Assembly: GCA_002011735.1 (NCBI GenBank) | Contig: MTOQ01000013.1 | Coordinates: 1-56,553, forward strand | From: Nitrospirae bacterium JdFR-81 | Lineage (GTDB): Bacteria > Nitrospirota > Thermodesulfovibrionia > UBA6902 | Direction: 5' to 3' | DNA length: 56,553 nucleotides | In this document: positions 9,502 to 21,904 of the stretch, piece by piece | How positions within the stretch are numbered: the first letter of the stretch is position 1 | Layout: every line of letters begins with the position of its first letter | The notes under the pieces: model-generated | The model's database searches: none | What the model was told of the DNA's origin: nothing | The model's input: only the letters and a program-made list of their open reading frames with translations | Program-made: the position numbers and the translations under genes

Positions 9502-9864
9502 ATGCAACATGAAAGACTCATTCATGACTGGATGGTCTCACACCTCAAACATCGTCTATCAAGAGATTACAGGGATATCAGGGTCAACCACGGAGGAGAA
9601 CAGAAGAACGAGTTTAAGGGGCACTATCCTGACCTCATCCTCGGCAACCATGGGCTCGTCCTTGCAGTCATGGAGGTCGAGACAGAGGAGAGTATAACCC
9701 CTCAAAAGGCCGAGGAATGGAAGGAGCTCTCAGGCCTTGGTGTCAAACTGATCCTCATGGTCCCAAAGCCTTCAAGGGCAAAGACCCTTGACCTCCTCTG
9801 GAAGGCAGGGATAGCAGACAGGGTATCTGTGGGCACATATGAGATAAATATAAATATGCCGTGA
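9502..9864 (+). CDS. Small conserved protein with nuclease-like fold, function unknown
   Basis: A 120-residue soluble protein. The ATG at 9502 has a good AAGGAGA site upstream and starts two bases after the DUF3187 stop. The order of elements (GHYPDLIL at about residues 41-48, then LAVMEVETE at about 55-63, then a helix KAEEWKEL and strand VKLILMVP) resembles the PD-(D/E)xK nuclease core, but the usual Lys of the E-x-K motif is Thr or Glu here (EVETE), so catalysis is doubtful. I cannot assign a function. It is the last gene before the WYL-controlled operon, with 258 bases between them, and seems to belong to the DUF3187 transcript. Confidence 0.65.
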   Translation: MQHERLIHDWMVSHLKHRLSRDYRDIRVNHGGEQKNEFKGHYPDLILGNHGLVLAVMEVETEESITPQKAEEWKELSGLGVKLILMVPKPSRAKTLDLLWKAGIADRVSVGTYEININMP

Positions 9865-10063
9865 ATACCGATTCACATTCGCCCTGTCTCAATTGACAAA
9901 TCCTATTGTGGAGTGTGAGGGCTGATCGAATTAATCCAGAAACGGGACATTAGAAGAAGAGATAACTACCAAAAAATCTTTAAAATTCCTTCGTACTGAT
10001 AACCCCCACCTAAATCTTCCCTGGTTTGAAGAGATAATCCCGGGCCAATTATGCTGATTCAAA

Positions 10064-10111
10064 CTGCCACACTGGTGGCAGTGAGGGTATAATATAATAC
10101 CCTAAAAGGGT
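10064..10111 (+). promoter_or_regulatory. Promoter and candidate operators of the WYL-McrBC operon
   Basis: An inverted repeat CTGCCAC-ACTG-GTGGCAG (10064-10081) lies where the -35 element would be, just upstream of a consensus TATAAT (10088-10093). A second dyad, ACCCT-AAA-AGGGT (10099-10111), lies across the predicted transcription start. Two dyads around a promoter directly in front of a WYL regulator gene suggest autoregulation. The regulator-operator link is inferred from position. Confidence 0.5.
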
Positions 10112-10122
10112 GGTATGGGATA

Positions 10123-11046
10123 ATGTCATACAAGTTTGACTCCCTCATGATAATCCTCAACAAGCTTGAGAACAAAGAGAAGGTCACTGTCAGATCCCTC
10201 ATGGAGGAGCTTGAAGTCAGTGAGAGGACTGTTCATCGGTATCTCAATACCCTCCAGATCGGCGGATTCCCCATCAAATATGACAGGAAAAGAGAGACCT
10301 ACTGTTTTGAAGAAGGCTATACCCTGAGCAAACCCGACCTTACCCTTGAGGAGAGCCTTGCCTTTGCCCTCTCGAAGAAACTGATGAAGAGCCTTGGCCC
10401 AGGTTTTGAGAAACGACTCTCAGACATAGAGAAGAAACTCTCCATGAAGGATGCAAAACTCCAGGAGCAGTTTTTATTGAAAGGGCCTGAACAGCCAGAG
10501 GCAATAAAAGGCATGATTGAAGAGATAACCGGTGCAATCAAAAACTTCAGGGTGATAGAACTCACCTATAAAAGTGCCTATTCTGACAGAGAATCTGTGA
10601 GAAAGGTCGAACCATACTATCTTTTCTTCGACAATGACATATGGTATCTGAGAGGATATTGCCATTTAAGAAAAGAGCTCCGGACCTTTGCCCTCGACAG
10701 GGTGATATCCGTAAGGCCACTGAACAAACATTTTGTACCCGAGAAGATATCACCTGATGAAGACATCTCAGGGGCCTTTGGCCCTGTGGTAGGTGGCAAA
10801 CCGGTAGAAGTAATCCTAAGATTTGATGCCCCTATCAAACCCTTTGTCAGCAGAAAGAAGTGGCATCGTAGCCAGAAGTTAAAGGAATTAGAGGACGGGG
10901 GAGTTGAGATGAGATTCAGGGTCAATGGCTTAGCAGGTATAAAGCCATGGATTTATCAATGGTTACCCCATGTTAAAGTGATAGCCCCTGAGGAGCTAAA
11001 GAGGATAATGAGGGCAGAACTCAAAAGAGCCATTAAAAACATATAA
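10123..11046 (+). CDS. HTH-WYL domain transcriptional regulator
   Basis: A 307-residue DeoR/YafY-type regulator. An N-terminal winged helix-turn-helix (about residues 5-65; SLMEELEVSERTVHRYLNTL) is followed by a WYL domain (about 135-215) with YKSAYSDRESVRKVEPYYLFFDNDIWYLRGYCHLRKELRTFALDRV and a C-terminal WCX-like extension (about 220-300). WYL domains bind nucleic acid or nucleotide ligands and often control anti-phage operons, as in the BrxR/CapW group. It is the first gene of a tightly spaced six-gene operon and probably represses its own promoter. Base composition is close to that of the housekeeping genes. Confidence 0.88.
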   Translation: MSYKFDSLMIILNKLENKEKVTVRSLMEELEVSERTVHRYLNTLQIGGFPIKYDRKRETYCFEEGYTLSKPDLTLEESLAFALSKKLMKSLGPGFEKRLSDIEKKLSMKDAKLQEQFLLKGPEQPEAIKGMIEEITGAIKNFRVIELTYKSAYSDRESVRKVEPYYLFFDNDIWYLRGYCHLRKELRTFALDRVISVRPLNKHFVPEKISPDEDISGAFGPVVGGKPVEVILRFDAPIKPFVSRKKWHRSQKLKELEDGGVEMRFRVNGLAGIKPWIYQWLPHVKVIAPEELKRIMRAELKRAIKNI

Positions 11047-11065
11047 CCCTTAAAAAGGAGGACTT

Positions 11066-12289
11066 ATGGGAGAGAGACTAAAGTGTCCGGTCTGTGGAAA
11101 ACCACTGACACGTGCAGAGTATGACAGGGCCCTGGGCCTCTGGAAGGAAAAACAGGAGCATATAAAACACCTTGAGGCAGAGCAGAAGAAACTCAGGGAG
11201 AACCAGAAGAGGCTTGAAGAAGAGAGAAAGAGGCTCAAGGCACAGGAGAAGGCGTATAAACAGCAGGTAAAGAAACTGACCGACGAATTTCAAAGGCAGA
11301 AGACCCAGCTCATAAAAGAGAGGGACAGGCTCTTACAGGAGCAGAGAAAGAAATTTACAGAGGAGATGCATAAGCAGAGGGCCAGGATGGAAAAATCCTT
11401 TGAACTCCGCATGAAGAAAGAGATCCAGAAAGGCATTGCCCGTGGCATAGAAGAGCAGAAGAAACAGATCAAGAAGCAGGAAGAAGAGCTCAGGAAGGCA
11501 AAGAACAGGATGCAACAGCTTGAGAGGAGCCTGCGCATCTCTGCCAGAAAGTATGAGCAGGCCAATGAGGAGATCAAGAGACTGAGGAAACAGCTTGAAC
11601 AGGGCATTACCCCACAGATAGAGGGACTGCTTGAAGAAGACAATCTCCTCTCAAAACTCAAGGAACTATATCCTGAAGACAGGTTTGAGCATCCAGGCAA
11701 GAAAGGTGATATAATTCAGATCGTTATAGATCAGGGCAGGGAGGTTGGCAAAATAGTTTATGAATGTAAGAAGGTGAAGACATTCAACAGCAGACATATC
11801 GATCAGGCCAGAGAGGCACGCAATAAACGACAGGCCGATTTTGCCATTCTTGTAACAAACGCCTTTCCATCGAAGAGACAGTTCTACTTTGTTGAAAAGA
11901 CGGTGTTTGTAATCAGTCCCATAAGCCTTGAGCCCATAACCTATATCCTCAGGGCCAGCCTGGTGAGGATAGCCCTGTTGAAGATGAGCAATGAGGCAAA
12001 GGAGAAGGCAGTCCAGAGGGTCTATGAGTATCTCTCAAGCAGTGAGTATAATAACAAAGTGAATGATATTGCTAACCAGCTTTTTGAACTCGGCAAAGAA
12101 CTCCGTTCTGAGATATCTGCTCACAAACGCACCTGGGAGAAGAGATACAACATATACCGTTGTCTATTTAATGACATAAGATTGATAGACCACAAGCTGA
12201 AGGAACTCGTCCACGACAGCACCAACAACAAACAAAAACTCCTGCCACTGAGAAAGGAATATATCGAGATTACGGAATTGGGAGGGTGA
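11066..12289 (+). CDS. DUF2130 family coiled-coil protein with predicted nuclease domain
   Basis: A 407-residue protein. A zinc-knuckle-like start (CPVCGK, residues 7-12) is followed by a very long charged coiled coil (about 25-200) and a globular domain (about 205-320) with GKKGDIIQIVIDQ and KIVYECKKVK. This is the DUF2130 pattern, in which D and E-x-K (ECK) suggest a PD-(D/E)xK nuclease fold. The C-terminal helical tail ends at about 405. A GGAGG site precedes the ATG and the gene lies 19 bases after the WYL gene. DUF2130 proteins are found in phages and accessory islands; a nuclease role is inferred from the motif. Confidence 0.78.
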   Translation: MGERLKCPVCGKPLTRAEYDRALGLWKEKQEHIKHLEAEQKKLRENQKRLEEERKRLKAQEKAYKQQVKKLTDEFQRQKTQLIKERDRLLQEQRKKFTEEMHKQRARMEKSFELRMKKEIQKGIARGIEEQKKQIKKQEEELRKAKNRMQQLERSLRISARKYEQANEEIKRLRKQLEQGITPQIEGLLEEDNLLSKLKELYPEDRFEHPGKKGDIIQIVIDQGREVGKIVYECKKVKTFNSRHIDQAREARNKRQADFAILVTNAFPSKRQFYFVEKTVFVISPISLEPITYILRASLVRIALLKMSNEAKEKAVQRVYEYLSSSEYNNKVNDIANQLFELGKELRSEISAHKRTWEKRYNIYRCLFNDIRLIDHKLKELVHDSTNNKQKLLPLRKEYIEITELGG

Positions 12290-12329
12290 GGGAAAAAGTA
12301 GATATATAATATTCGCAAAAGGAGGTATT

Positions 12330-13181
12330 ATGGGTAATACAATAGAAAAATTTTTGTCTGCCTTGAATAAAAAGGATGGCAATTTTCGGAAAAGTGCAGG
12401 TAACTATGCTAATAGAGTCCACATACATCATAACCCGAAGAAAGACATTAAAATCCCACAGAAAAAAGATCCAAGCAAAACAAAGAATTGTGACATTGTT
12501 TTTGCTCATTTATATGAAAATCCACGAACTAAAGAATTATTCTGGCTCAAGAAAGCGGCTAATTCACAACATGTTCATGGACATAAGTGTATTTCTTATA
12601 TTTTTCATAATCTATTATCTTCCCCTCCAGTAAAAATCAAACGTGATTTGGCAAAGAAAATATTAGATTCGGAACTTCCTAAGATCGTCGATTACCTAAA
12701 TAAAATAGAAAAGGATAATATAACTTTAGAAGATTTGGATTATAACCATGAAGAAATAGAGCAAGTGTCTACATATCTTATCGAACGTCAAATTAGGAAT
12801 GTTGGAGGAGGATACCGGAACCACGAAGATAATCGTAAGGTAGAAAAAGCAGCTATTAAATTCGTTATAAGACATTACAAACAACAGGGGTGGAATGTCC
12901 AGTCTGTGGAATTTGAGAAAAGAGGATACGATTTACTCTGCACAAAAGGAACAAGAGAGGAGCATGTTGAAGTAAAAGGTATCAAAGGTACAGAGTTATC
13001 ATTTATTGTTACATCTCGTGAAGTTGAACAGGCTCATATAGACCCCCACTCGGTATTCTGCGTGGTGACCTCTGCCTTATCAAAGAGACCAAAATTATCA
13101 CGTTTTACTGGTAAAGAATTTATTAATTCCTTCAAGTTAAATCCGTTAGCATTCAAAGCTATATTTAGTTTGAAAAAATAA
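12330..13181 (+). CDS. DUF3883 domain protein, putative restriction-associated nuclease
   Basis: A 283-residue protein. Residues about 1-150 match nothing I recognise. Residues about 165-270 look like DUF3883: a helix (KAAIKFVIRHYKQQGW), the strand pair GYDLLCTKG / EEHVEVKGIKG with D and E-V-K as in PD-(D/E)xK enzymes, then ELSFIVTSREVEQA and a terminal strand-helix. DUF3883 is frequent in restriction and defence proteins. AAAGGAGGT precedes the ATG. The gene is markedly AT-rich (about 28-33% GC in sampled lines against about 48-55% outside), pointing to recent acquisition. It sits between DUF2130 and mcrB with gaps of 40 and 33 bases. Confidence 0.68.
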   Translation: MGNTIEKFLSALNKKDGNFRKSAGNYANRVHIHHNPKKDIKIPQKKDPSKTKNCDIVFAHLYENPRTKELFWLKKAANSQHVHGHKCISYIFHNLLSSPPVKIKRDLAKKILDSELPKIVDYLNKIEKDNITLEDLDYNHEEIEQVSTYLIERQIRNVGGGYRNHEDNRKVEKAAIKFVIRHYKQQGWNVQSVEFEKRGYDLLCTKGTREEHVEVKGIKGTELSFIVTSREVEQAHIDPHSVFCVVTSALSKRPKLSRFTGKEFINSFKLNPLAFKAIFSLKK

Positions 13182-13214
13182 GATACAAATCGACATGAGG
13201 AAGGAGAGGAATAA

Positions 13215-14597
13215 ATGGAAAATTTGAGAAATACGGTGAGGCGATTAACAGAAGAAGAGAAAAAACAAGCCATTGCCGCTGCCAAGAGAGAAAAAGCTAA
13301 GGGGTCGCGTAGTCAAGGAACATCTAACATCCCAGTAGAAGTAGAATATAAGGGGAAAATATATGTTGGAACAGGGAAAGAAGTATTTCGAATACTAAAA
13401 AAAGATAGTGGAGTAAAGTCGTCAACTCTTACGGCTCTTGTAAAAAAGATTGGTGCTAAGTGGCTATTTAATCCATTGGCTGAAGAAGGCGAAATAAGTA
13501 ATATACGTACAGAAACAGAAAAACATCTTAAGGAGACAAAGATACAATCAGATTCAGAAGGTGTTTATAAACTACTTGAAAAGAAAAAACAGATCATTCT
13601 CTATGGGCCACCTGGGACGGGGAAGACATATAGTACAAAGGAGATTGCCCTTGAGCTGTTTACTGAAGAAGAGGAAGAGTACGAAGAATTGCGTGACAAA
13701 GGCAGAATCGAATTCATCACCTTTCATCCCTCCTATAGCTATGAAGAATTCATAGAAGGCATCACTGTCGAGACAGAAAGAGAGGGAGTTGCTACCGAAA
13801 GTGTCAAGTATAAACTCAGACCTGGGATTTTTAAAGAGATGTGCAAGAAAGCCTTAGGATCTCTTATTAATTTACCAGATGAGGAAATTGAGGAGAAGAC
13901 ATGGCGTGAAGTTTTTGATGCCTATATAGAGAAAGAAGTTGTGGATTTTGAAGATGCACCTCCATATGTCCTTATCATAGACGAGATCAACAGGGGTGAT
14001 ATGGCAAAGATATTTGGAGAGCTCATAACCCTGCTTGAGGCTGACAAACGCCTTGGAGAAGATAATGAATTAATTGCCACTCTGCCCACATCTGGCGACA
14101 GATTCGGCGTTCCACCAAATCTCTACATCATCGGCACAATGAACACAGCAGACAGAAGCATCGCCCTCCTGGATGTGGCATTGAGAAGGAGATTTGGTTT
14201 TATCGCCATGGAACCAGACCTTGAGATGTTAAGAAGTCATATAGAGAATACTACGGATATAGAAGAGAACACGAAATCTCTCCTTACTCACTCAATTAAG
14301 GCCATTGAAAAGATAAACCAAAAGATATGCCATGACAGGGCCATAGGCAGGGACAAACAGATAGGCCATTCCTATTTATTGAAAGTTAAAAATACAGAAG
14401 ATCTGGCCATGGTCTGGCGACATGAGATACTGCCCCTCCTTGAAGAGTACTGCTACGGAGACTATCAGAAGATCAACCAGATACTCTTTAATAGTGATTC
14501 AGACACTGAGTGGATAAGTCAATGTGAAGGGATTAAAGATATCACAGCCAATAACATCAGAGACATGCTCAATGAGATAATTTCTGATGGTGAATAA
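13215..14597 (+). CDS. mcrB: McrB-like AAA+ GTPase subunit of a modification-dependent restriction system
   Basis: A 460-residue protein. The N-terminal about 120 residues are basic and unassigned, in the position of the McrB DNA-recognition domain. The AAA+ domain follows: Walker A GPPGTGKT (about residue 132), Walker B with LIIDEINRGDMAKIFGELI (the McrB EINR form) and sensor/arginine region MNTADRSIALLDVALRRRF. McrB hexamers bind target DNA, hydrolyse GTP and drive the McrC nuclease. AGGAGAGG precedes the ATG. It overlaps mcrC by 11 bases. The first about 125 codons are AT-rich like the preceding gene, while the AAA+ part is closer to host composition, suggesting a domain swap. Target specificity cannot be read from sequence. 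Confidence 0.9.
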   Translation: MENLRNTVRRLTEEEKKQAIAAAKREKAKGSRSQGTSNIPVEVEYKGKIYVGTGKEVFRILKKDSGVKSSTLTALVKKIGAKWLFNPLAEEGEISNIRTETEKHLKETKIQSDSEGVYKLLEKKKQIILYGPPGTGKTYSTKEIALELFTEEEEEYEELRDKGRIEFITFHPSYSYEEFIEGITVETEREGVATESVKYKLRPGIFKEMCKKALGSLINLPDEEIEEKTWREVFDAYIEKEVVDFEDAPPYVLIIDEINRGDMAKIFGELITLLEADKRLGEDNELIATLPTSGDRFGVPPNLYIIGTMNTADRSIALLDVALRRRFGFIAMEPDLEMLRSHIENTTDIEENTKSLLTHSIKAIEKINQKICHDRAIGRDKQIGHSYLLKVKNTEDLAMVWRHEILPLLEEYCYGDYQKINQILFNSDSDTEWISQCEGIKDITANNIRDMLNEIISDGE

Positions 14598-15873
14598 TAG
14601 CAGTATCATAGAAGTCCCAGAATACAAATCAATAAAGATAGAACCTCTAAGTGATAGAGAGATTGAGTATCTCAGGCAGGACTGCTTTAACTACAGGGAG
14701 GAAGGAAAGTCACCTTATAAAGTAAGGCGTTTGAAAGAGAAAGACGAGATTGAAAACACCTCCTACTCTGGTATCATCCAGCTTGATAACTTCAGGATTC
14801 ATTTCTCCACAAAGGTCAGCACAAACCTGTTCTACATGCTCACCTTTCTTAAAGACGAAAAAGCGTTCCTCTATGATTCAGAAAGGATTATTGAGATAAA
14901 AGAAGGCGAATGCTTCTTCGACATCATTGGCAGGCTCTTTCTGAACGAACTGGAAAAGATCTTTGAGAGAGGCTTCTATAAGAGATATGTCAGAAAAGAA
15001 GAAAATCTTGCCTTCCTTAAAGGCAAGCTATTGATTAAACATCAGATAAGAAACGATTTCACCAGAAGGCCAGAGTTTTACTGCTCATATGAAGACCTGA
15101 CATACGACAACCTCGAGAATCGCATAATCCTGCGTGCCGCAACCCTCCTGATTCCACTTATCCGTTTTAATGAAGAGATAAAGGGTGACCTCCTTAAATA
15201 TACCCATCTCCTCAGAGAAGAAGTCAGCCTCATTGATGTGAATCCCGAAGACTGCAATCGGATAAGGTTTCACAGGCTCAATGACTACTATGAAGCCATA
15301 ATCCAGCTCTCAAAGGTTATTCTTCAGTATCACTTCATCAGGCATACACAGAAGGGACTCTCCAAGGGGTTCAATTTTATTGTAAACATGAACAGAGTAT
15401 ACGAGGACTTTATCACCTCTGTTATCGAAGACATCGTCTCAACTGATGAGGAATTTCAGGACTTCGTGGTGGAGAAACAGGCAAGATTTGACAGTCTTGT
15501 AAGAGAGAGAACGATTATCACAAGACCCGACATAATCCTCCGCAGGAAGAACACCGAAGAGTATCCTGTTATTATTGACGCCAAGTACAAGAGGGAGGAG
15601 GACAACACAGACTATTATCAGGTGATAGCCTATGCTATGGCAATACCTACAGCAAAGGTATGTTGCTTAATTTATCCAGCAGAAGAAGAAAGGATTGAGA
15701 CAAGGATTTTAACTCTTAAAAGAAAGGCCTTTGACAGCGCAAGAGAAGATGTAAGATTACATGCAATCAAGATCAATTTATTCTGGGAAGAAAAGACGGG
15801 ATTTAAAGATTATATAACGAAGGTAAAGAGAGAATTAAAAGGCGAATTATTAAATGTAGTAGAATTCCATTAA
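14587..15873 (+). CDS. mcrC: McrC-like nuclease subunit
   Basis: A 428-residue McrC family protein. The N-terminal region carries beta-rich segments (about 1-120) including FRIHFSTKVSTNLFYMLTFL; the middle contains EDLTYDNLENRIILRAATLL; the C-terminal PD-(D/E)xK nuclease core is TRPDIILRRKN with IIDAKYKRE (about residues 320-345), in which D and D-A-K are the expected catalytic residues. McrC is stimulated by McrB to cut DNA. It is translated from a start inside the end of mcrB (11-base overlap), as usual for this pair. Everything needed for activity appears present. Confidence 0.9.
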   Translation: MVNNSSIIEVPEYKSIKIEPLSDREIEYLRQDCFNYREEGKSPYKVRRLKEKDEIENTSYSGIIQLDNFRIHFSTKVSTNLFYMLTFLKDEKAFLYDSERIIEIKEGECFFDIIGRLFLNELEKIFERGFYKRYVRKEENLAFLKGKLLIKHQIRNDFTRRPEFYCSYEDLTYDNLENRIILRAATLLIPLIRFNEEIKGDLLKYTHLLREEVSLIDVNPEDCNRIRFHRLNDYYEAIIQLSKVILQYHFIRHTQKGLSKGFNFIVNMNRVYEDFITSVIEDIVSTDEEFQDFVVEKQARFDSLVRERTIITRPDIILRRKNTEEYPVIIDAKYKREEDNTDYYQVIAYAMAIPTAKVCCLIYPAEEERIETRILTLKRKAFDSAREDVRLHAIKINLFWEEKTGFKDYITKVKRELKGELLNVVEFH

Positions 15874-15897
15874 GCTCAAGGCCCATCGAAGAGGACG

Positions 15898-17496
15898 ATG
15901 GTAAGATTAACCTTTTATGGAGGCATAAGAGAAATAGGAGGGAATCAGATCCTTCTTGAGGATGGAGACAGGTCTGTATTTTTTGACTTTGGACTATCAT
16001 TCAAGAGATACAAAAAATTTTATGAAGAATACCTTAAACCTCGCGCTGGTTCAGGCTTGCTTGATCCTTTAATTATGGGATTACTCCCTCCGCTAAAAGG
16101 GATCTACAGAGATGACCTGCAAAATTCCGAGATCTGGAAGCACTTCCATGCCAGCCCTTTTGTCTGAAAATTAAAAAAGTTAGACGGAGTTCTTTTAAGT
16201 CACGCCCACCTTGACCACTCAGGTTATATCTCTTTCCTTAAAAAAGAGATTCCCATCTGTTCAAGCTCAATGACTGCTTTTATTGTGAAGGCAGTTCAAG
16301 ACAGTGGAAGACCTGATTTTGATAGACGTATCTGCTATTTTACTCCATGCGAGACCGGTATACCTGCAGGGTGGAGACAAGAGGCATTTCTGTCAGACTC
16401 ATCCAGTCCTGATGAACAACGCCTTTTTCTCCTGGGAGATATCTCGCCGCGCAAACTGCCCAAGAAAGCGGTAGAATTTTGGGCAAACCCAGCAAAAACA
16501 AAAGAGCTTATCTCGTGTTCCCCTGGAAATTGTAAAGAATTTGTTTTTAACTTAAAATGTTTTGCTGTTGATCATTCGATACCAGGGGCAACAGCATGGG
16601 CAGTGGAAACCAACGCTGGATGGATAATTTACACTGGTGACCTTCGTCTACATGGGAAGAAGAAGGAATTCACACAGAAGTTTCTGAAGAATGCCGCAAG
16701 ACTTAAGCCCAAGGTGCTCATAATAGAAGGCACCAGGGTAGATGATGAAAGAAAGATTAACGAAGAAGAGGTTAAGGGTAATCTCCTTAAAGTTGTAAAG
16801 AGGTTCAAGGGGAAACTGGTTATAGCTGACTTTGGCGCAAGAAATATAGAGCGGTTAGAAACATTTCTCGAAATCGCAGAGGAAGTCGGGAGAAAGCTTG
16901 TTATAACGGATAAAGATGCCTACCTGCTCGATGCGCTCCATGTATTGGATCCAGCTATTCCTGATGCAACCAATAAGCATATATATGTCTATCAGAAGAC
17001 AACCGCAAATAAAAGTCCTGATATATGGAAGAGAAACATTTATGCTAAGTATAGCAATAAGATCGTGATGGCAGAAGATATTCGCAGAAATCAAGAAGAT
17101 TTTATTTTGTGCTTCAGTTTTTTCGATATAAACGAATTGCCAAGTCTTAAACCCGAGCCAGAGAGTGCATATATTTATTCTTCAAGTGAACTTTACGATG
17201 AAGAGCAGGAAATAGATTTCCGGCGACTTCATGCCTGGCTTGAACATTTCCAGATTAAAGGAATAGGATTGCCAAGGGAAATAGCTTACCGGAAATGGGA
17301 GATTCCAGAGGATGAAAAAGCACTTCATGCCTCAGGACATGCCGCCGGCCCTGAGTTAATAGAGATGGTCTGCTTGATTAAACCACAATATGTCCTCCCG
17401 GTACACACCGAAAGACCTGAATATTTCAGGGAACACCTCCGCGATACAGATATCAAGGTAAGAATAGCTGAACCAGGTGAGTGTATAAATATCTAA
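15898..17496 (+). pseudogene. RNase J-like beta-CASP MBL-fold gene interrupted by an in-frame TGA
   Basis: One open frame of 533 codons broken only by TGA at 16165-16167. Before it lies the MBL start (FYGGIREIGGNQILLEDGD). After it, in the same frame, come the metal motif SHAHLDHSG, then VDHSIPGATAW, YTGDLRLHG and the beta-CASP motifs DFGARN, SGHAAGPELIEM and VLPVHTE of RNase J-like enzymes. The downstream ATG at 16270 lies after HxHxDH, so reinitiation could not give a metal-binding enzyme. A point nonsense mutation is the simplest reading; UGA readthrough or selenocysteine is possible, since UGA appears to be recoded elsewhere in this window, but I see no good SECIS hairpin. It sits 24 bases after mcrC and ends at the operon terminator. 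Confidence 0.75.
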
Positions 17497-17533
17497 CCAA
17501 AAAACTTGCACTTGCGAAGTGCAGGTTTTTTGG
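17497..17533 (+). terminator. Rho-independent terminator of the McrBC operon
   Basis: An inverted repeat starting right after the beta-CASP stop: arms CCAAAAAAC-TGCACTT and AAGTGCA-GTTTTTTGG with a GCG loop and a single internal mismatch. The 3' arm contains six T. The matching A-run on the other arm means it could work in both directions. Confidence 0.8.
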
Positions 17534-18211: not shown

Positions 18212-18718
18212 ATGATGGAGAGGGTGATAACGATATTGACATTACTGATCACATTTATTGCGGTTTCAGGTGTTGTTTATGCAGGCTCAGTGAATGGCAC
18301 ACTTGATGTTACAGCGAATGTCATCGGATTTTGTGATGTGATGGTCACTGGCGTGGACTTTGGGAATGTAGTGGCGGATGGCTCCCTCTATTATGCCAAT
18401 GGGGATGTATCTGTGGCATGTGACACAGGGGTACCTTATAACATTGCTATGGATGCAGGTATGTATTTTGATGGGATCAGCAGGCAGCTGAGCGACGGTT
18501 TTAGTGGTTTCCTGCATTACCACCTCTTTAAGGATGGGACTTACACTCAGGAGTATGGTGATTCCGACTATGATAATACCTTCCCATTGGGATCCAGTCT
18601 TTCAGATATAGGTGATGGGACATGGCAGGCACACACGGTCTATGGCCAACTGGTAACTCTGGGCGGAGAGCCCGTGGGTAGTTACGCTGATACCGTTACG
18701 GTAACCGTCTACTATTAA
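18212..18718 (+). CDS. SCPU-domain (spore coat U-like) secreted pilin subunit
   Basis: A 168-residue secreted protein. The signal peptide ends at about VVYAGS (residue 24), followed by an SCPU domain rich in strands: SVNGTLDVTANVIGFC, then CDTGVPYNIAMDAG, GFLHYHLFKDGTYTQEYGD and a C-terminal donor-strand-like ADTVTVTVYY. Two cysteines (about 45 and 70) could form the usual disulfide. Such proteins are subunits of Csu-type (archaic) chaperone-usher fibres. A perfect GGAGGTAA precedes the ATG; a start one codon later is equally possible. It is the first gene of a three-gene operon and the only subunit encoded here. Confidence 0.85.
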   Translation: MMERVITILTLLITFIAVSGVVYAGSVNGTLDVTANVIGFCDVMVTGVDFGNVVADGSLYYANGDVSVACDTGVPYNIAMDAGMYFDGISRQLSDGFSGFLHYHLFKDGTYTQEYGDSDYDNTFPLGSSLSDIGDGTWQAHTVYGQLVTLGGEPVGSYADTVTVTVYY

Positions 18719-18732
18719 AAAATAAAAATTAG

Positions 18733-18759
18733 ATGGGGCTTCCACATTGGAAGCCCCAT
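18733..18759 (+). other. Perfect 12-bp intercistronic hairpin after the pilin gene
   Basis: ATGGGGCTTCCA-CAT-TGGAAGCCCCAT: an uninterrupted 12-bp stem with a three-base loop, starting 14 bases after the pilin stop and ending 17 bases before the chaperone start. It has no T-run after it, so an attenuator or mRNA-stabilising/processing hairpin fits better than a full terminator. It would favour excess subunit over chaperone and usher. Confidence 0.7.
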
Positions 18760-18776
18760 GATGAATGGAGTGGGGG

Positions 18777-19562
18777 ATGAGACAACCTCACTTTTTTATC
18801 CTTCTTATTTTTCTTCTATCCCTTCCTGTAAATGTAGATGGAAGTTCACTCAAGATATCCCCCCTGAAAGTATCGCTCGGTGAAGGCAGACGATCCGCTG
18901 TATTGAGCCTTACGAATACAGGAGAGGAGGCGATAACCCTCCAGGTTTCTGCCAAGAGGTGGCTTCAGGACGAGACGGGCAAGGATATATACAGCGATAC
19001 TGAGGATATTATATTCTTCCCCAGGATATTCCAGATAGAGAAGGGTAAAACGAGAATCATAAGGGTGGGTTACCAAGGGGCAGTAGATGTGCAGGTGGAG
19101 AAGGCATACAGACTGTTTATTGAAGAATTGCCTGTAACAGCTCCCCGGGGGGAGATACTGAGGTTTGTCTTGAGATTCGCTGTGCCTGTTTTTATAACAC
19201 CTTCCAGAGAGGTCAGGAGACCGATTATTGAGAAGGTAGGCCTTGCTCATGGTAGTGTTAGAGTGAAGATAGGGAATGCGGGTAACACACACCTGCTCAT
19301 GAGAAAGCTCGTTATAACCGGCGTTGGGGCATCTGGGAGGGAGGTCTTTTCAAGGGAGACGGCAGGATGGTATATCCTTGAAGGCTCATCAAGGGCTTTT
19401 ATTGTGAATATCACGGAACAGGAGTGTCTGGAGGCAGATGTAATCAAGATAAAGGCCACGGGTGAGCACCTGAATCTTGAGGCCAAGCTGGACCTTAAGC
19501 CAGAGTACTGCAAAGCGTCTGAGAGGAAGGGACGGGCTCATACAGGAAGAAAGGCAGGATGA
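18777..19562 (+). CDS. Periplasmic fimbrial chaperone (PapD-like)
   Basis: 261 residues from the ATG at 18777, which has GGAG/GGGGG upstream and begins a clear signal peptide (FFILLIFLLSLPVNVDG); the in-frame ATG at 18765 lacks a site. Two Ig-like domains follow: domain 1 (about 25-145) with SLKISPLKVSLGEGRRSAVLSL and IIFFPRIFQIEKGKTRIIRVG, in which the conserved Arg/Lys pair anchors the subunit C-terminus, and domain 2 (about 150-240). The closing tail is basic. It would shuttle the SCPU subunit to the usher, whose gene overlaps it by four bases (ATGA). Confidence 0.88.
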   Translation: MRQPHFFILLIFLLSLPVNVDGSSLKISPLKVSLGEGRRSAVLSLTNTGEEAITLQVSAKRWLQDETGKDIYSDTEDIIFFPRIFQIEKGKTRIIRVGYQGAVDVQVEKAYRLFIEELPVTAPRGEILRFVLRFAVPVFITPSREVRRPIIEKVGLAHGSVRVKIGNAGNTHLLMRKLVITGVGASGREVFSRETAGWYILEGSSRAFIVNITEQECLEADVIKIKATGEHLNLEAKLDLKPEYCKASERKGRAHTGRKAG

Positions 19563-21904
19563 CCGTAGAAGGCCGTTCTTGGAAACCACACCTTATAAGT
19601 CTTGCCTTATTAAATCTGCTCCTTCTTTCCTCATCATTGTATGCAACCAATAGAGTAGTAATGAAGGTCTATCTGAACACCGTAGAGATGGGAGAATATA
19701 TCTTCATCCTCGGGCCTGAGGATACCGTGTTTTTCCCTATGAGGGATCTGCTTGATATGGGTTTCGACAGGCCACCCGAAGATGCGGAAGTAGAGATAGA
19801 AGGAGAGAGGTATATTTTATTAAACAAGATCCAGGGCGTAGGGGTTGAGATAGATAAGGAGAGGGTGATACTCCATATCACCGCTGAACCTCATCTCCTC
19901 AAAAAGCATTTGTTCGATCTCTCATTCAAGGGACCGAAGGATGTCTTATATGTAAGAAATGATTCCGCGTTTCTAAATTATTACCTTGATTATCTAACGG
20001 GTGATGTAGATTTTGGATCGTTGTCCCTTTCTCTTGAGACCGGGGTGAATATAGGGGGTTATTTCGGTCATTCCAATTTTTCTTATCTGAATTCGAATAG
20101 TGAGGATAGATTTGTAAGATTGATGACGAGCATAACAAAGGATGACCCTGTGACACTCCGAAGGTACGTACTTGGTGACTCCTTTGCTACCTCAGGGCTG
20201 TATCTCAGTGGAGGATTAATCCTTGGGGGAGTGGGTATCTCGAAGAACTATAAGATAAATCCTTATTTTATAAAGGTGCCAAGTCTCACCCTCTCGGGTG
20301 CTGTCCAGACACCATCAGACATTGAAATCTATGTGGATGATTACCTCATAAGAAGAGAGAGAGTGCCTCCAGGAGAGTTTGAGTTCTTAAACCTTATAGA
20401 GAGGCCGGGTGCGGGCATATCCACCATATTGATAAAGGATGCATATGGACGTGTGAAAAAGGTGGATACCCCGTTTTATATCTCTTCCTCCCTCCTCAGG
20501 CCAGGCGTCCAGGAGTACAGTTACACCCTGGGATTCAAGAGGGAGGATTTTGGCAAAGAGAGTTTCAGATACACCGAACCCTTGTTGATAGGTTTTCATC
20601 GACTTGGGCTTACTGATACCCTAACGGTAGGAGCCGGGATAGAAGGTGGCAGGGAAGGATTTAATCTTTCACCCTCGATCACCTTTCTCCTCGGACTGGC
20701 AGGAGAGATGCATATCTCTGGTGCAATAAGTAACCATAATGGTCAAATTGGCTATGGAGCATTATTGGGTTATAGTTATACCAGCAGAAAGAAGAGTCTG
20801 AGGATTTCCGTCCGTGGCTTCAGCAGAGGATACTCAAATGTCTCTCTCCTTCCTTCGCAGGACAAGCCCTGGTTTGAGGGTAATATAAACTCTGGATATA
20901 ACCTTGGAAGGCTTGGAACCATCTCGGTAGGGTTTTCAATGGGAGATTATTATGCCTCTACAGAGGTAAAAAGATTCTCGATAAACTATACAAAGAGACT
21001 CAGAAAAGACCTCTCCTTTCATCTCAGGTTCACCAGGACAGAAACAGATGAGGTGGTTAATAAGGTCTTTATAGGGCTGAGAATCTCTCTGGGAGGGCAT
21101 CATTCAGGGGAGGCAAAATACACATCGGACGGGGAAGTCTCAGAGCAGACCCTGTTGATCTACAAGGATCCACCGTTCAAGAAAGGCATAGGATACAGGC
21201 TGAATATTGAAAGGGTAGCCTCTGAGACAGAAAATGGAGAGGTGAATGGTGATGTTCTCATACACTACCGTTTTCCTGCGGCCATCAGCAGAATTAATTA
21301 CAGGCATATCTCCGGAGAGGATGTCTATAATCTTGGCGTAACAGGAGGGATAGTGTTTATAAAGGACTCCCTGTTTTTAACGCGCCCTATTACAGACAGT
21401 TTTGTACTTGTCAGGGTGGATGGACTCGAAGGGGTAAGGGTATATTATAGCAACAAGGAGGTAGGTCGGACGAACAGAAAAGGGGATCTCATTGTGCCAT
21501 ACATCCTCTCATACCATCCCAATAACATCTCCATTGAGCCTGAAGATATACCTGTGCAATATGAATTAAAAGCAGTGAAGAAGTATGTTACAACCCCCTA
21601 TAGGGGTGGTGGTATCATGGAATTTGAGACAAGAGCGCTTCAAGGTTTTATAGGCCACCTCTTTATGCTTCAGAAAGGCAGAAAGGAGCCTGCTGAATAT
21701 GGAAGACTCGAGATTAAGGCAGAAGACAGCGTTATCAAAACAGTGACAGGTAAGGGTGGAGAGTTTTATCTTGAGAACCTCCCACCAGGGAAATTCCCTG
21801 CGAGGCTCTTCCTTAAGGATATGGAATGTGATTTTGAGTTAACCATACCACACAGCAACAAGGTGATTGTGAATATTGGAGAGGTGATATGTCATATGAA
21901 TTAG
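19559..21904 (+). CDS. Outer-membrane usher (FimD/PapC-like, archaic type)
   Basis: A 781-residue protein with a hydrophobic export segment (about residues 10-30), an N-terminal chaperone-binding domain (about 35-125), a beta-barrel with internal plug region (about 135-640; YVDDYLIRRERVPPGEFEFLNL is usher-like) and C-terminal domains ending with a GEFYLENLPPGKFPARL module. Ushers assemble and export fibre subunits across the outer membrane. It overlaps the chaperone gene by four bases. Length is typical of Csu-type ushers. No adhesin gene follows; the next gene has its own promoter. Confidence 0.88.
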   Translation: MTVEGRSWKPHLISLALLNLLLLSSSLYATNRVVMKVYLNTVEMGEYIFILGPEDTVFFPMRDLLDMGFDRPPEDAEVEIEGERYILLNKIQGVGVEIDKERVILHITAEPHLLKKHLFDLSFKGPKDVLYVRNDSAFLNYYLDYLTGDVDFGSLSLSLETGVNIGGYFGHSNFSYLNSNSEDRFVRLMTSITKDDPVTLRRYVLGDSFATSGLYLSGGLILGGVGISKNYKINPYFIKVPSLTLSGAVQTPSDIEIYVDDYLIRRERVPPGEFEFLNLIERPGAGISTILIKDAYGRVKKVDTPFYISSSLLRPGVQEYSYTLGFKREDFGKESFRYTEPLLIGFHRLGLTDTLTVGAGIEGGREGFNLSPSITFLLGLAGEMHISGAISNHNGQIGYGALLGYSYTSRKKSLRISVRGFSRGYSNVSLLPSQDKPWFEGNINSGYNLGRLGTISVGFSMGDYYASTEVKRFSINYTKRLRKDLSFHLRFTRTETDEVVNKVFIGLRISLGGHHSGEAKYTSDGEVSEQTLLIYKDPPFKKGIGYRLNIERVASETENGEVNGDVLIHYRFPAAISRINYRHISGEDVYNLGVTGGIVFIKDSLFLTRPITDSFVLVRVDGLEGVRVYYSNKEVGRTNRKGDLIVPYILSYHPNNISIEPEDIPVQYELKAVKKYVTTPYRGGGIMEFETRALQGFIGHLFMLQKGRKEPAEYGRLEIKAEDSVIKTVTGKGGEFYLENLPPGKFPARLFLKDMECDFELTIPHSNKVIVNIGEVICHMN

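Follow-up and report, generated by a model that had tools for sequence, protein, structure and literature searches.

A WYL-headed, probably mosaic locus around an ordinary McrBC pair, with a low-GC3 block crossing a gene boundary, in Nitrospirae bacterium JdFR-81

The six genes found on the + strand at positions 10123-17496 of the window, meaning the whole stretch of 56,553 nucleotides analysed here, are interpreted with moderate confidence as a mosaic anti-phage locus headed by a WYL regulator, in which a canonical McrBC core is combined with a cassette made of the NOV gene and the McrB N-terminal domain, a WYL-DUF2130 module and an interrupted, probably non-functional beta-CASP gene. Gene content, motifs, the interruption, the compositional block, the inverted repeats and the lack of such a linkage at the other loci sampled were established directly, and an integrated multi-nuclease system is not supported. 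The coding features of the locus are as follows.

10123-11046, + strand: HTH-WYL-WCX transcriptional regulator of 307 aa, with matches to HTH_11, WYL and WCX
11066-12289, + strand: DUF2130 protein of 407 aa, with an N-terminal CPxC, a helix of about 160 residues and a C-terminal PD-(D/E)xK nuclease domain
12330-13181, + strand: NOV_C/DUF3883 protein of 283 aa, with a C-terminal E-D-ExK nuclease motif
13215-14597, + strand: McrB, with an unmatched N-terminal domain (residues 1 to about 122) and a canonical AAA+ GTPase
14587-15873, + strand: McrC with an intact PD-DxK active site, overlapping mcrB by 11 bases
15898-17496, + strand: RNase J-like beta-CASP gene, interrupted
16165-16167, + strand: in-frame TGA ahead of the HxHxDH motif

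According to the ORF coordinates, the intergenic gaps are 19, 40, 33, -11 and 24 bases, exactly as an earlier note on this DNA had given them, and the six family names that it proposed are all backed by Pfam (HTH-WYL-WCX; DUF2130; NOV_C, that is DUF3883; the AAA_5 GTPase for McrB; McrBC, PF10117, for McrC; and RMMBL/Lactamase_B_2 for the beta-CASP gene). Shine-Dalgarno-like sequences stand 5' of most of the six genes, and a hairpin with a T-run follows position 17496, in agreement with the terminator claimed for the end of the operon. The six genes are probably co-transcribed, with the candidate signals listed below. When the locus was submitted to PADLOC, no system model fitted it.

10063-10082, no strand assigned: candidate WYL operator, a perfect 8-bp inverted repeat ACTGCCAC-N4-GTGGCAGT overlapping the -35 hexamer
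10064-10093, + strand: sigma-70-like promoter CTGCCA-18-TATAAT (10/12), directly 5' of the WYL gene
10084-10103, no strand assigned: candidate second operator, a 10-bp near-perfect palindrome AGGGTATAATATAATACCCT spanning the -10 element
17500-17533, + strand: intrinsic terminator-like hairpin and T-run, 3' of the beta-CASP gene

Regarding the promoter, the site scores among the highest of the promoter-like sequences found on the + strand of the region, where such sequences are not more frequent than the shuffle mean, so that the case leans on its position and on its overlap with the repeats. The zero-mismatch form of the first repeat occurs a single time in the 2.05-Mb genome, and 7-bp inverted repeats are found at 0.8 per kb within the window; both repeats are candidate WYL operators by the argument of position. 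WYL regulators such as BrxR control defence loci, with Type IV restriction as a common partner (NAR gkac334, PMC9122601), and the WYL protein of this locus would probably bind the two repeats that overlie its promoter and keep operon expression low until released by a ligand.

Two observations concern the surroundings. Upstream, a small protein (9502-9864) without a family match carries a PD...EVET stretch and is possibly a degenerate PD-(D/E)xK-type protein. Directly downstream of the operon, at 18212-21904, the translations resemble chaperone-usher pilus genes (subunit, chaperone and usher).

The core of the locus is, by its sequence, an ordinary Type IV McrBC pair. McrB matches the solved McrB of Thermococcus gammatolerans (6ut3, E 6e-69) as well as that of E. 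coli, and possesses the Walker A motif GPPGTGKT at 131, DEINR at 256 and MNTADR at 309, in which NTAD is the canonical NxxD GTPase signature. McrC is matched by PF10117 along the entire profile, and D315 and D331-A-K333 are retained in its alignment to the solved McrC. Meanwhile, residues 1 to about 122 of McrB have no match in Pfam, nor among the plasmids of the collection and the loci fetched.

Three PD-(D/E)xK-type motif sets had been claimed for the locus, and all three exist: besides that of McrC, DUF2130 carries D215 and E233-x-K235, and NOV carries E172, D201 and E214-x-K216. With these motifs intact, with tight co-directional spacing, a single promoter, a single terminator and ribosome-binding signals before most genes, the locus could be taken for one integrated six-gene Type IV system under WYL control, where McrBC and two PD-(D/E)xK nucleases act on modified DNA and the beta-CASP protein supplies an abortive RNA stage. 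That interpretation is improbable, as seen by the comparison with other genomes, by a composition that points to at least three histories and by the premature stop in the beta-CASP gene.

Searches of 296 genomes from the window's phylum, of 201-251 from the Chloroflexi-group phylum, of viral contigs and of the plasmid collection did not find the six-gene set. Among the 296 genomes, the window's own included, NOV is present in 4, McrC in 9 and DUF2130 in 54, and the beta-CASP protein was matched at E <= 1e-30 only in the window's own genome. The 251 Chloroflexi-group genomes hold McrC in 27 and NOV_C in 57 cases, mostly as matches within frames of about 1150-1300 codons for the latter, and the hit-position lists give no contig common to NOV_C and McrC, which argues against an integrated system. 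So do the 34 other McrBC loci of two phyla, inspected along with several kb of flanking sequence as far as the contig reached, using profiles that recover all the window genes: DUF2130, NOV and beta-CASP are near McrBC in none of them, and a WYL gene is near it in one (L164, upstream). The expectation of the earlier note that other genomes would keep the accessory genes next to mcrBC was therefore not borne out for these three families in the loci inspected. Its broader proposal of an expanded, regulated defence system is supported insofar as McrBC stands behind a WYL gene, probably in one transcript, along with two more proteins of the PD-(D/E)xK type; a conserved expanded system is not supported.

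DUF2130 with WYL, NOV and beta-CASP are each found elsewhere in unrelated settings. The closest DUF2130 relative belongs to a genome of the same class (G192), where a WYL gene lies directly upstream in the same order with a gap of 28 nt, and the window WYL matches no other WYL in that genome. At L044:7248-18691 the pair adjoins AddAB-like, MutS and PK_C genes, without McrBC. WYL and DUF2130 may thus represent a separate module of a nuclease and its regulator, set in front of the other genes.

A nuclease core is predicted for DUF2130, in line with the structural expectation placed on this protein. The AlphaFold2 model has the helix of about 160 residues, followed by a C-terminal alpha-beta-beta-beta-alpha-beta nuclease core whose region mostly has pLDDT values of 78-94, and D215, E233-x-K235 and the N-terminal CPxC are invariant across an alignment of 28 relatives. 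The top Foldseek match of the model is BamHI, weakly (E 0.018, probability 0.80), with Cap4, EcoT38I and McrC at lower ranks; these numbers are weak, but the family is consistent. For NOV, the structure predicted from the single sequence, with a pLDDT of 39, is uninformative on a nuclease core; E172, D201 and E214-x-K216 are invariant across the 6 sequences aligned, and DUF3883 has been termed a novel REase domain (PMC3710099).

The composition of third codon positions divides the operon in another way. GC3 is 0.53 in WYL, 0.58 in DUF2130, 0.28 in NOV, 0.24 in the N-terminal part of McrB, 0.45 in its AAA part, 0.48 in McrC and 0.38 in the beta-CASP gene, while the long neighbour genes mostly range from 0.5 to 0.67. 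An unsupervised scan, seeking the strongest low-GC3 segment without preset boundaries and with lengths in steps of five codons, returned the following block, which is a new observation of this analysis.

12330-13581, + strand: low-GC3 block (0.27 vs 0.48), comprising the NOV gene and the McrB N-terminal domain

The block begins at the NOV start codon and ends at about codon 123 of McrB, just ahead of the AAA domain, its 3' end being known to a few codons because of the five-codon steps. Its log-likelihood ratio of 30.4 was reached by 0/300 permutations, among which the maximum is 12.4, and fourfold-degenerate sites give an agreeing block at 12456-13575. This composition suggests that NOV and the McrB N-terminal domain entered together as a recognition cassette, although differences in GC3 can also arise without co-transfer. 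The pairing of the N-terminal domain with NOV has not been seen elsewhere, since no relative of that domain could be detected.

The locus might instead be a defence hot spot in which independent genes (WYL-DUF2130, NOV, McrBC and beta-CASP) have piled up in the manner of an operon, sharing transcription and not function. The occurrence of each accessory family alone in other contexts and the different composition of the modules both fit such a pile-up; however, a low-GC3 block that spans the boundary between NOV and McrB and stops at a domain junction exceeds what random stacking would be expected to give, and this account is considered a fairly unlikely one. A bolder extension of the mosaic reading, doubtful at present, is that NOV and a new McrB N-terminal reader constitute a swappable two-part cassette, so that McrBC would be retargeted by joint exchange of the 5' end of mcrB and the preceding gene, and NOV would be the complex's second nuclease.

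The sixth gene had been described as one RNase J-like gene, and the earlier note missed that it consists of two frames split by the TGA at 16165-16167. The 5' piece, 15898-16167, encodes 89 residues and is closed by this TGA, after which the frame continues unshifted until 17496; the HxHxDH site, as SHAHLDHSG, begins a few residues past the stop. Since the next in-frame ATG lies at 16270, beyond HxHxDH, the metal site cannot be complete in either piece, and no catalytic RNase can come from the gene as sequenced. Consequently, the possible RNA-acting arm suggested for the system, by which RNA would be degraded, is unsupported as sequenced.

Across the interruption, the beta-CASP motifs are all present (D30, HxHxDH at 102-107, H226, D248, HASGH and H503). 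Decoding of the TGA as selenocysteine would restore a full-length enzyme, with the remainder of the frame open and every catalytic motif kept, and the genome has a tRNA-Sec candidate above the Rfam cut-off, at 73 bits. Yet no stable hairpin follows the TGA (fold against shuffles, z = 0.62), and arginine stands at or beside this position in 5 of the 6 close relatives aligned, cysteine in none; the five include L118, which at 54% identity is the nearest of the relatives found. Besides, TGA acts as an ordinary stop in the window, where it is the commonest stop among long frames and also terminates the DUF2130 gene of the same operon. The selenocysteine reading was therefore rejected as barely credible, the hairpin value, the arginine of the relatives and the usual role of TGA making either a nonsense mutation or an error in the assembly far likelier, and one of these two is most likely the origin of the interruption. 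Should an assembly error of the draft genome lie behind the TGA, the beta-CASP gene would be intact. A beta-CASP copy in a Chloroflexi MAG (L003:6055-7532) is likewise split across two frames, by which the family may decay often or assemble poorly.

Relatives of the beta-CASP protein without adjacent McrBC came from 16 loci of the Chloroflexi group and from 5 plasmids, those of plasmids (Thermus, Rhodothermus and archaea) often being near other defence or restriction genes. No further case of beta-CASP beside McrBC was found in the sample. The nearest is a plasmid of Thermococcus barophilus, where a DUF2357/PDDEXK_7 gene resembling mcrC lies downstream of beta-CASP at a distance of about 5 kb and none of the genes tested was recognised as McrB-like. 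Two contigs of the Chloroflexi-group phylum (G460:C36 and G380:C17) carry beta-CASP and McrC about 33 kb apart. In two Chloroflexi-group genomes (L116:2165-6207 and L124:4545-8717), a beta-CASP relative lies directly 5' of a Rad50/SbcC-like ATPase gene, with junctions of 1 base and 24 bases, making a nuclease-ATPase pair possible.

Considering the mosaic reading, the AAA+ GTPase of McrB would assemble on DNA while its own N-terminal domain reads a modified base, presumably the target, and McrB would then translocate and drive the PD-DxK nuclease of McrC to cut. The NOV/DUF3883 gene and the McrB N-terminal domain, arriving as a cassette, would have altered target recognition, with NOV possibly serving as a co-reader or a second nuclease. 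The 3'-terminal beta-CASP gene would be a separate acquisition, now interrupted and probably non-functional.

If the cassette reading is true, it offers a concrete route for retargeting Type IV restriction, in which an accessory nuclease gene and the McrB reader domain are transferred jointly into an operon already in place; this would also make DUF2130 and DUF3883, on which there is almost no literature, both testable as McrBC partners. If it is false, the locus usefully cautions against taking operon-like gene spacing in a defence locus as proof of a single machine.

Among known systems, CoCoNuTs (coiled-coil nuclease tandems, PMC11090510) share with this locus a McrBC-like pair near a coiled-coil protein and extra nucleases, and an attack on RNA has been suggested for them. 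Their GTPase (McrB/CnuB) has the NxD motif and is fused to a long coiled coil, whereas McrB here is NxxD without a fused coiled coil, the long helix belongs to the separate DUF2130 protein, the McrC nuclease is intact and the locus has no CnuH helicase or HEPN gene; DUF2130 is not mentioned in the CoCoNuT paper (PMC11090510). Membership was rejected by the NxxD motif and the architecture.

As in loci with BrxR-type regulators (PMC9122601), a HTH-WYL gene heads the defence locus and inverted repeats lie near the promoter; the likeness lies in this arrangement, and the WYL protein here is a candidate DNA binder. The beta-CASP gene shares D30, HxHxDH, H226, D248, HASGH and H503 with ribonucleases of the RNase J family (EF2904, 2az4, TIGR00649), differing in a score far under the family cut-off and in its interruption.

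McrBC Type IV systems (E. coli and T. gammatolerans; census in eLife RP94800, PMC11090510) share with this locus the NxxD AAA+ GTPase of McrB, a McrC with a DUF2357-type region and a PD-DxK nuclease, the mcrB/mcrC overlap and a variable N-terminal domain on McrB, which in those systems is a modified-base reader (ADAM/DUF3578, EVE or similar) and here a candidate one. Unlike those systems, the McrB N-terminal domain of this locus matches no known reader, and genes for WYL, DUF2130, NOV and beta-CASP proteins lie within the same operon.
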